A stretch of DNA of 16,891 nucleotides from Bdellovibrionales bacterium. Lineage in GTDB: Bacteria > Myxococcota > XYA12-FULL-58-9 > SYDY01. Every line of letters starts with the position of its first letter. The stretch's first letter is position 1. The notes beneath the pieces were generated by a model, which had not been told where the DNA came from, did no database searches, and saw only the letters and a program-made list of their open reading frames with translations. Position numbers and translations under genes: made by a program. The stretch is from positions 1-16,891 of the forward strand of contig SYDY01000106.1 in assembly GCA_005801425.1 (NCBI GenBank), read 5' to 3'. Positions 7,255 through 12,780 of this stretch are shown in pieces.

Positions 7255-7867
7255 TTTGTAACTCCGGAAAATGGTGAAAAACGGCCTGTTGAATATTTTT
7301 TTCGACCTGATCGAAAGATCCACTGCTGTCGATACGTGCCAAGGGGCCATCATGGTTGGCGAGCAGGGATTGATAATGCACAAACACCATTTCCTGGCGC
7401 AATTGATGCTCAAGAAGCTCAATGGGTTGTGCGCGATTTTGGCGGCGTGCGATGGCTTCCTCTACCGAAATTTCGAGCATGATCGTGAGATCTGGGGGGA
7501 CGGCATATTGATTGATGCTGCGCACCCATTCCATAGGAAGCATCGCCGATTGATACGCAAGCGACGACATCACATAGCGATCACAAAGGACTATTTTTCG
7601 AGAATCGAGTGCTGGGGTGATCTCTGCGTTGACATGGTCCATGCGATCTGCGGCAAAAAGAAGTGCAAGTGTTGCTTCATCGCATGGCGATGTTTGTCGC
7701 AAACGCCGACGTATCTCTTGTCCTAAGCTTCCCGAGGAAGGTTCGGCAGTCACATGAATATCCAGACCACGTTTCACAAGAGTTGACGCCAAACGCTCTA
7801 TTTGAACGCTTTTTCCTGCGCCATCGAGTCCTTCAAAAACAATCAATTTTCCAGAGGGCATTGTCAT
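7247..7867 (-). CDS. tmk: Thymidylate kinase
   Basis: The product is 206 residues from the ATG at 7867, a normal length for bacterial TMP kinase, which converts dTMP to dTDP with ATP in the cytoplasm. Motifs seen: Walker A FEGLDGAGKS (11-20), the EP of the TREPG-like loop (42-43), LLFAADR (69-75), and DRYVMSSLAYQ (96-106), the family signature. The LID-like segment reads RRQNRAQPIELLE, less Arg-rich than some family members. The start codon overlaps the permease stop as ATGA. A longer open frame to 8128 lies within the permease gene and is not needed. A second in-frame ATG at 7861 would remove only two residues. Its position after an ABC permease and before the cinA-like gene is probably an operon convenience, not a functional link. 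Confidence 0.94.
   Translation of the reverse strand: MTMPSGKLIVFEGLDGAGKSVQIERLASTLVKRGLDIHVTAEPSSGSLGQEIRRRLRQTSPCDEATLALLFAADRMDHVNAEITPALDSRKIVLCDRYVMSSLAYQSAMLPMEWVRSINQYAVPPDLTIMLEISVEEAIARRQNRAQPIELLEHQLRQEMVFVHYQSLLANHDGPLARIDSSGSFDQVEKNIQQAVFHHFPELQSE
7262..7265 (-). promoter_or_regulatory. Shine-Dalgarno site selecting the cinA-like GTG start
   Basis: On the minus strand GGAG is followed by 7 nt and then the GTG at 7254. The site lies inside the end of tmk and supports the short start over the 298-codon open frame. Confidence 0.6.
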
Positions 7868-8808
7868 CTTTTGCCATAGTCTCGCAACAAATACAGGAAA
7901 AATGGACCACCCGCGAGGGCGGTGATTGCGCCCACGGGCAAACTTCCGCCGATCCATGGAAACATACTGCGGCCCATGGCATCTGCAGCGACCACGAGTA
8001 TGCCCCCAGCGTATGCCGTAATCGGTATAAGCAATCGGTGGGTATTTCCGAGATGGCGACGCACCACATTGGGCACGATAAGTCCGACAAATCCAATAAG
8101 TCCGGTGTAGGCCACAACAGCAGCGCAAAGAACGGTTGCTACCGATAAAAGTATGATGCGCGTGCGGTGGGCGGAAAGACCGAGCAATTCAGCATGGATT
8201 GTGCCGAGGCTCAAGAGTTGGAGTGCGTTTTGTGAGAAAGTTAATCCAATGACAGCGATCATGATCCCAAGTGTGAGCCAGAACAACACGGTGGGTGTTT
8301 CAATCCCGATCCCACCGACAAGCCAAAAGAGCATGGCCTGTGCGGTGGATGCAGGAACAACCATTTTGACAATCGTGACCATGGAACTGCTGATGGTGTT
8401 GAGAACAACACCCACCAGTACAATCGTCGCAGGATCGCGCCATCCAAAGGCGCCGCACAAAAGCATCAAACATAGAATGCTGGCCAAGGCGCCGATACCT
8501 GCCGAAAGCGGCAGCCATGCACCGCCAAGTCCCATCACAATGGCCAAAACGCCGCCTACGGCAGCACCTCCAGACACACCGATCACGTAAGGATCTGCGA
8601 GGGGATTGTGCAGTAGAATTTGCATCACAAGGCCACTTACGGCCAATGCGGCACCTGTGAGTAATGCAAGCCACATGGTGGGTGCTCGGATCTCCCAAAG
8701 CACGGCCTGATCAACATGCCACGGCCAATGCCATCCTGTAGATCCTACCGACAATGCGAGCATGCACAGCAACACGCTCAAGGCAGCATAGGCCGCTATT
8801 TTATACAT
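7864..8808 (-). CDS. FecCD/BtuC-family ABC transporter permease
   Basis: The product is 314 residues, very hydrophobic, with about nine or ten membrane segments, and close to the usual length for BtuC/FecD. The family hallmark near residues 52-85 is clear: LLTGAALAVSGLVMQ, then HNPLADPYVIGVSGGAAVG. A later RTRIILLSVATVL and GLIGFVGLIVPNVVRRHLG match the conserved region that contacts the ATPase. It would move a metal chelate (cobalamin, haem or siderophore) with the binding protein encoded just upstream. AGGA (8815-8818) lies 6 nt before the ATG at 8808, and the start overlaps the binding-protein stop by 13 nt. The expected next gene, the ATPase, is replaced by tmk, so an ATPase encoded elsewhere is needed. 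Confidence 0.93.
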   Translation of the reverse strand: MYKIAAYAALSVLLCMLALSVGSTGWHWPWHVDQAVLWEIRAPTMWLALLTGAALAVSGLVMQILLHNPLADPYVIGVSGGAAVGGVLAIVMGLGGAWLPLSAGIGALASILCLMLLCGAFGWRDPATIVLVGVVLNTISSSMVTIVKMVVPASTAQAMLFWLVGGIGIETPTVLFWLTLGIMIAVIGLTFSQNALQLLSLGTIHAELLGLSAHRTRIILLSVATVLCAAVVAYTGLIGFVGLIVPNVVRRHLGNTHRLLIPITAYAGGILVVAADAMGRSMFPWIGGSLPVGAITALAGGPFFLYLLRDYGKR

Positions 8809-9683
8809 TCAAGATCCTGTGCGAGTTCTTGCAATGCCTCTGGAAATCGTGGTCCCAAACGCACCCATGGATCAATATTTCGTGGTCGGATCATTCTTGT
8901 CTTTTTTTGTACTTTTGTAGGGGCGGTTCGTGAACCGCCCTTTCCCAGTCCTTCATGACTCAAATCAATCCACAGATCAGGATCTGCTGCTTTGACTGTT
9001 TCTTCGTCCACCATAGGATAGGCTATGGGACTCTTGATGGCATTTTTTAATCCCATCCATGCCATCGCTTCATGTAAAAAATTGTCAGAACCCACCACAA
9101 CCCACGGTTTAGACGACACGACCAACATAACCCGCCGTTCAGGTAGGGGCGCAGCTTGCTGTGCCCTGTGTCCACAGGACCCTTTGAGCTTTCCATATTG
9201 GCCTTGCAATTTTTCTCGCAAAACCCCGGCACTTTTTTTGTTAAAAAGTTTCCCGAGCACGTCGATGGCATCCCACAGATCTTGCATTGTAGAAGCGGGC
9301 AAAATCAGCGTTGGGATACCGCGAGCGGCAAGGGCTTCAAGTTGCCTTGTTGGCATGGCGTTGGAGACAGTAACGATCGCACCGGGCTTTGCCTGGTGTA
9401 TTCGTTCCATATCGAGATCGGCAAAACCACCGACGCGTGGCAATGTGAGCACTTCAGGTGGATAAGTATCAAAGCGTGTAACGCCCACCAATGCATCATC
9501 CGCATGCAGCGCAAAGATAATTTCTGTGAGCGAAGGTGCCAGTGATACCACCCGTGAAACGTGGGCAGGAGGTGTACCAATCCACTGTGCGTTTGCTGGA
9601 ATGCAAAACAATAGAGCAAGAATTATTTGGAACGCGGGCATCCTGCCCGCACATAACAAGCAAATAATGATGACACGCTTCAA
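8796..9683 (-). CDS. BtuF-like periplasmic binding protein carrying three palindromic insertions
   Basis: The product is a helical-backbone (TroA/BtuF-type) metal-chelate-binding protein, 295 residues from a TTG at 9683. Conserved core: RVVSLAPSLTEIIFAL, VGVTRFDTYPPEV, VGGFADLDMERI and a C-terminal GPRFPEALQELA. The TTG overlaps the asnS stop as TTGA, matching the coupled style of the operon, and gives a signal peptide of about 32 residues ending ANAQ. The alternative is an ATG at 9641, with a shorter signal peptide but a start codon buried in a palindrome. Three palindromes (8917-8940, 9143-9166, 9634-9650) are translated in frame. They give unusual Arg/Gly/Pro-rich stretches (KGGSRTAPT, HRAQQAAPLPER, CAGRMPAF) that lengthen loops or the signal peptide. 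Cobalamin is the best guess at the ligand, but haem or siderophore binding cannot be excluded. Confidence 0.85.
   Translation of the reverse strand: MKRVIIICLLCAGRMPAFQIILALLFCIPANAQWIGTPPAHVSRVVSLAPSLTEIIFALHADDALVGVTRFDTYPPEVLTLPRVGGFADLDMERIHQAKPGAIVTVSNAMPTRQLEALAARGIPTLILPASTMQDLWDAIDVLGKLFNKKSAGVLREKLQGQYGKLKGSCGHRAQQAAPLPERRVMLVVSSKPWVVVGSDNFLHEAMAWMGLKNAIKSPIAYPMVDEETVKAADPDLWIDLSHEGLGKGGSRTAPTKVQKKTRMIRPRNIDPWVRLGPRFPEALQELAQDLECIK
8917..8940. repeat. Palindromic element inside btuF-like gene (copy 1)
   Basis: GTAG is followed by GGGCGGTTC-GT-GAACCGCCC: perfect 9-bp arms (8921-8929 and 8932-8940) around a 2-nt loop. It is translated on the minus strand as part of KGGSRTAPTK, between the strand DLWIDLS and the C-terminal GPR helix, where BtuF homologues usually have a short linker. 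The form GTAGGGGCG...CGCCC is a well-known type of dispersed intergenic palindrome. Confidence 0.8.
9143..9178. repeat. Palindromic element inside btuF-like gene (copy 2) with adjoining small palindrome
   Basis: GTAG is followed by GGGCGCAGC-TT-GCTGTGCCC (9147-9155 and 9158-9166): 9-bp arms with one mismatch and a 2-nt loop, the same architecture as copy 1. CCTGTG-TC-CACAGG (9165-9178) follows at once as a second perfect palindrome. Together they encode the HRAQQAAPLPERR region, in the linker before the RVMLVVSS strand. Confidence 0.75.
9634..9650. repeat. Palindromic element in the btuF-like signal peptide (copy 3)
   Basis: GCGGGCA-TCC-TGCCCGC: perfect 7-bp arms with a 3-nt loop. On the minus strand it encodes AGRMPA in the middle of the signal peptide and contains the in-frame ATG at 9641. 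It is a different palindrome family from copies 1 and 2. Confidence 0.75.
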
Positions 9684-12731: not shown

Positions 12732-12780
12732 CGTCATCCGCGCGAAAGTTGATCGTCATCCCCGCGAAAGCGGGGATCCA
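12732..12780. repeat. Tandem pair of GTCATCCCCGCGAAAGCGG-type palindromic repeats
   Basis: Copy 1 (12732-12748) is partial and starts CGTCATCCGCGCGAAAG. Copy 2 (12754-12780) is complete, with perfect arms ATCCCCGC and GCGGGGAT around GAAA (12758-12777) and the ending CCA. This is a very widespread intergenic palindrome type in proteobacteria; its translation VIPAKAGI is a common false N-terminus. Here that translation appears in the frame running into the acyl-CoA dehydrogenase. The GCGAAAGC core is known to form an exceptionally stable mini-hairpin in DNA. Confidence 0.85.

Follow-up and report, generated by a model that had tools for sequence, protein, structure and literature searches.

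Two dispersed and probably mobile hairpin families, a GTAG-tagged REP of about 200 copies (family A) and a second repeat of about 17 (family B), have with high probability been inserted into the coding sequence of a single BtuF-like gene. The window, i.e. the whole stretch of 16,891 nucleotides analysed here, comes from a draft Myxococcota genome of 3.38 Mb in 121 contigs (G000). Its features relevant to this study are as follows.

8796..9683, minus strand: host gene of all three elements, encoding a class III substrate-binding protein of the BtuF/heme-binding type (Peripla_BP_2), about 295 codons
8917..8940, plus strand: element 1, a GTAG REP, whose gene-strand reading gives residues 248-256 (KGGSRTAPT)
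9143..9166, plus strand: element 2, a variant GTAG REP, whose gene-strand reading gives residues 173-181 (RAQQAAPLP)
9165..9178, no strand assigned: small palindrome CCTGTG-TC-CACAGG, adjoining element 2
9629..9650, plus strand: element 3, of the second repeat family (GGARCGCGGGCATCCTGCCCGC), which either encodes signal-peptide residues 12-19 (AGRMPAFQ) or coincides with the start-codon region
7864..8808, minus strand: FecCD-type permease gene (PF01032, E 6e-71), sharing 13 bases with the 3' end of its neighbour, the host gene, in the ORF list

All three palindromes originally noticed (8917-8940, 9143-9166 and 9634-9650) were present at those places. Element 1 consists of GTAG followed by GGGCGGTTC, the loop GT and GAACCGCCC, with a perfect 9-bp stem, and element 2 of GTAG followed by GGGCGCAGC, the loop TT and GCTGTGCCC, its 9-bp stem having one G-T mispair. 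Both carry, at one palindrome end, the unpaired tag that characterises GTAG-tagged REPs, and their 9-bp stems and 2-nt loops lie inside the ranges of 5-13 bp and 2-20 nt listed in Table 1 of PMC3733652. The design proposed as common to these two elements was thus found in tag, stem and loop, but the GGGCG motif is situated inside the 9-bp arm and does not form a separate module preceding it. About 0.09 hairpins of this geometry would be expected in a stretch this long, and two were observed. Element 1 is identical to the commonest variant of family A (53 of 177 aligned copies), and the variant represented by element 2 occurs three times. It should be added that the small palindrome at 9165..9178 may be part of the stretch inserted at element 2, or could be due to chance.

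The core of element 3, GCGGGCA / TCC / TGCCCGC, forms a 7-bp stem inside the longer repeat GGAACGCGGGCATCCTGCCCGC, the longer conserved repeat around this core being TGGARCGCGGGCATCCTGCCCGC; its loop carries ATG on the gene strand. Neither a GTAG nor a CGTC tag was seen on the element, and since the conserved 5' extension of the family, TGGARCG, comes without either tag, we consider family B as a separate palindromic repeat belonging to neither superfamily. The assignment of the third palindrome to another family than the first two was therefore correct: it is a repeat of its own, with its own set of copies.

Searching the genome for further copies of both palindrome types, as had been suggested, returned 206 matches to the family A pattern GTAGGGGCG-N11-GCCC in 3.38 Mb (one for the reversed-pattern control), and 13 exact copies of the family B core, or 17 with one mismatch (none for the control), so that neither palindrome is unique. 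This copy number ruled out chance palindromes. Among 96 relatives, no genome had more than 11 matches to the family A pattern, mostly with other stem sequences, and the amplification is, as far as sampled, nearly private to this lineage. A T-rich stretch precedes GTAG in family A. Furthermore, 26 pairs of copies (a few of them counted in overlapping loci) form head-to-head dimers in which the GTAG ends face outwards and a spacer of 27 bp surrounds TTTGATTCAA; of the remaining close pairs, nearly all have the same orientation. Several dimers are surrounded by a dispersed repeat of 150-230 bp, 70-82% identical between copies and resembling a larger composite miniature element (L083 2283-2476, L127 2118-2349, L092 2379-2591, L027 1457-1665 and L123 5097-5329).

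The fetched genome stretches covered 184 distinct family A copies of the 206, of which 22 lay between two coding flanks, 25 had a single coding flank and 137 were without coding support, in line with the expectation that such palindromes are usually intergenic. Some of the 22 intragenic calls near ORF ends may be false. As 22 of 184 is far below random placement (85% coding assumed), genes strongly exclude the elements, as they do in other REP-rich genomes. The window also contains a CGTC-tagged REP, CGTCATCCCCGCGAAAGCGGGGATCC, at 12754-12779, preceded by a degenerate copy and located just upstream of an acyl-CoA dehydrogenase gene. Its family pattern has five exact matches in the genome and 25 when a single mismatch is allowed (control 0); the long ORF starting from TTG 12749 reads it as VIPAKAGIH, this start being probably wrong.

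As regards the mobiliser, the draft genome has four Y1_Tnp matches, none of them flanked by two copies of either palindrome, and no intact RAYT flanked by inverted REPs was found among the four. One RAYT-like ORF (L081, G000:C1:3533-6697) is disrupted by some 190 bp of inserted sequence containing stops; it has a GTAGGGGCG half-site about 100 bp upstream, being the only Y1_Tnp match with a half-site nearby, and could be the defunct mobiliser of family A. The high number of identical copies points to recent mobility, while present-day mobility is unproven, because none of the Y1_Tnp genes is palindrome-flanked and the RAYT-like ORF is broken.

The host protein matched Pfam PF01497 (E 5.5e-19), and its predicted fold superimposed on BtuF 1n4a with Z 25.6 and on heme-binding 2r7a with Z 25.9 (rmsd 2.4-2.6). 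Thus, both the Peripla_BP_2 domain and the fold with interdomain helix, which define BtuF and class III substrate-binding proteins, are present, and the protein is, on the basis of this model, an uptake component of the vitamin-B12/heme type, with B12, heme or a siderophore as candidate ligands. The FecCD permease and host genes presumably constitute one transport operon. The host gene may start from TTG at 9683 or, alternatively, from ATG at 9641-9639. The TTG start, which overlaps the stop codon of an asparaginyl-tRNA synthetase-like gene located upstream, gives MKRVIIICLL... with a positive n-region, whereas the ATG start has none.

The open frame continues across all three elements, and elements 1 and 2 are flanked on the outside and separated from each other, in a single frame, by the invariant family residues A49, P50, G85, E93, P100, P193, E228 and P278. 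A hexamer-based coding score, for which 258 long ORFs from the genome served as training set, was positive over most of the host gene and dropped at all three elements to values from -7 to -12, with one other weak dip, to -1.4. With invariant residues on both sides in one frame and negative scores at the elements themselves, in-frame translation of elements 1 and 2 is almost certain, as far as can be judged from sequence. It had been predicted for all three elements; for element 3, located at the start codon or within the signal peptide, the region may be that of the start codon and not an insertion into the protein.

Net length effects were assessed against 75 homologues from named genomes. 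The span of element 2, from L155 to P193, counts 39 residues against a mode of 32 (46 of 75 homologues), a length of at least 39 occurring in three of 75, which corresponds to a net gain of seven residues; the gap recurs against 28 relatives and against E. coli BtuF. The span of element 1, D240 to P278, is also of 39 residues; 53 of the 75 homologues equal or exceed this, and the minimum over all 75 is 36. Simple additive insertion of element 1 failed this length test. Since its removal would leave about 31 residues, fewer than in every one of the 75 homologues, element 1 is not a pure addition with respect to known homologues. The “repeat-driven protein growth” proposed originally accordingly applies to element 2 but not to element 1, and the alignment gaps do not match the encoded residues exactly for every element, only element 2 being a net addition. 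No homologue examined carried the encoded residues, which also ruled out that conserved residues merely happened to be palindromic. Around element 3, N-terminal lengths of homologues vary widely.

In the AlphaFold2 model calculated from a 50-sequence alignment (mean pLDDT 88.7, pTM 0.85), element 2 falls at the end of the interdomain helix and in the loop leading to the next strand (pLDDT 73, with 92-97 in the adjoining stretches), element 1 in coil at 241-262, a variable loop (pLDDT about 63-65), and element 3 within the N-terminal 20 residues (pLDDT 51-66). The model hence agrees with the predicted placement of the elements in the signal peptide or in loops, all of them at low-confidence loops or the N-terminus.

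Apart from the BtuF-like gene, intragenic copies of family A were found in genes for NqrA, an MrfA/YprA-type helicase, an ABC exporter, a NifS-like protein, MurD, an AddA-like nuclease-helicase, DnaG, MutL, a TonB-dependent receptor, DnaX and an exosortase-type protein, and of family B in that for ferrochelatase. The MrfA/YprA-type helicase has a net insertion, with an alignment gap starting exactly at the element, and NqrA is longer by 1-5 residues than most homologues; MurD is inside the length range of its homologues, the ABC exporter linker is about equal to them, the NifS-like protein is shorter than solved homologues, and ferrochelatase HemH, with a pristine family B copy, is in the compared stretch eight residues shorter than all 29 homologues. 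As gains, neutral cases and losses are mixed, these alignments point to intragenic elements patching length-tolerant loops rather than simply lengthening proteins. In ferrochelatase (G000:C93:41603-42634; L040:1496 region) the repeat encodes VRAGCPRS, with one cysteine, in an internal cysteine-rich segment, and to judge from this reading it might have changed a cluster ligand.

Random placement of 24 elements in an assumed total of about 3000 genes would give 0.1 genes carrying at least two; three were observed, and therefore some genes take elements more readily than others. The VGAxREPP-type frame was used by 13 of 22 intragenic copies against about 4.7 (some 22%) expected from open frames, a figure counted by eye and weakened by several copies being in the same gene. 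Two GTAG REPs stand close together in the AddA-like gene (L088, G000:C21), with a third lying some 4 kb away in a long ORF, and repeated REP-encoded units (VGAVREPPVRSEK and similar) occupy the C-terminal part of an FHA-domain protein (L102, G000:C40). The AddA-like, MutL, DnaG, DnaX and MrfA-type helicase hosts echo the replication and repair bias described for intragenic REPs in PMC3733652.

To explain these observations, we propose that the elements arrived by REP transposition, with a RAYT-type transposase, and are near-neutral. The GTAG element measures 24 bp, a multiple of three, and four or five of its six frames are stop-free, so that its insertion into a surface loop would keep the downstream frame and would be tolerated by the protein. 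Element 2 would have added about seven residues; element 1 may have replaced an equal stretch of a variable loop, or an equal loss may have compensated for it; and element 3, which we suppose to be translated, would have changed the signal peptide or supplied the start codon. Insertion is read here from gaps in distant alignments, given that the closest homologues of the host protein are 37-40% identical to it and that the search of genome contigs revealed no close relative with an empty site. Joined flanks likewise detected no empty sites within the fetched genome loci, only a larger dispersed repeat.

That element 3 lies outside the protein, with translation starting at the loop ATG (9641) and the palindrome lying at the ribosome-binding region, has a chance just short of even. 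Counted from this ATG, MPAFQIILALLFCIPANA is as long as the signal peptides of homologues, the coding score is negative ahead of it, and REPs at annotated N-termini are often extragenic according to PMC3733652; however, only the TTG start provides the positive n-region and overlaps the stop of the upstream gene, and another family B copy sits in frame within a lipoprotein-like signal peptide, MKLRTL-GARASCPH-IILYLMGFCLILGAC (L038 1496-1517, G000:C87), parallel to the situation of element 3. Both readings can be held, because nothing upstream is conserved and the loop ATG gives a signal peptide of normal length.

Length-neutral replacement of a loop segment by REP sequence, e.g. through gene conversion or microhomology-mediated repair, appears unlikely. 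It would account for element 1, a pristine copy without which about 31 residues would face the homologue minimum of 36, as well as for the shortened HemH, the ABC exporter linker and the NifS-like protein, but net insertions are seen at element 2 and in the MrfA-type helicase, and at 35-50% identity an insertion with subsequent loop trimming looks like replacement. A yet more speculative extension, to which we give a somewhat smaller chance, is that REPs overwrite loop codons with no net length change, in a conversion-like or repair-coupled manner and in the preferred frame VGAxREPP, and so act as a source of ready-made loop-compatible peptide patches. Finally, selection of the palindromes as regulatory hairpins (attenuators or mRNA stabilisers) instead of tolerated insertions seems very improbable: element 1 RNA does fold better than 198 of 200 shuffles, but elements 2 and 3 are unremarkable in this respect (z -0.02 and -1.38), and the same sequences occur in many unrelated genes in both orientations. 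Tolerated insertion of mobile-type repeats is thus the reading we prefer.

GTAG REPs have been characterised by the unpaired tag, 9-bp stem and 2-nt loop, hundreds of copies, head-to-head dimers and mostly intergenic location (Di Nocera et al. 2013, PMC3733652). That survey also reports in-frame intragenic copies, sometimes two per gene, with genes of Opitutus terrae and Rickettsia conorii holding more than one GTAG REP, a strikingly high proportion of host genes concerned with replication and repair, and the usual company, though not in each species, of a RAYT gene flanked by inverted REPs. Family A resembles this superfamily in tag, stem, loop, copy number, dimers and intergenic bias, its match with the 24 published families being one by description. 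It differs in its host, Myxococcota not being among those named in the parts of the survey consulted, and in two GTAG elements and one of another family sharing a gene of 295 codons. Inverted dimers with a conserved spacer and Y1_Tnp proteins are likewise shared with REPIN/BIME composite units and their RAYT transposases (Nunvar et al. 2010, PMC2817692), from which our case deviates by having no intact RAYT with two inverted copies and single elements in the host gene. The originally suggested analogy with Rickettsia palindromic elements, compared by description, is right as to palindromes in frame inside genes but loose otherwise: the taxon is another, RPE-1 is longer and RPE-4 and RPE-6 are placed in the CGTC superfamily according to PMC3733652, and the appropriate class is GTAG-tagged REPs. 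The present case is clearly a new example of a known, under-studied phenomenon and no new kind of system; it extends what is described to a host in the Myxococcota and to a short gene with an unusual load, and contributes measurements of net length effects. It thereby offers a compact natural case of mobile-type non-coding repeats turned protein sequence, in a genome with about 20 further decorated genes, well-studied enzymes included, in which cost, frame preference and insertion versus replacement are accessible.
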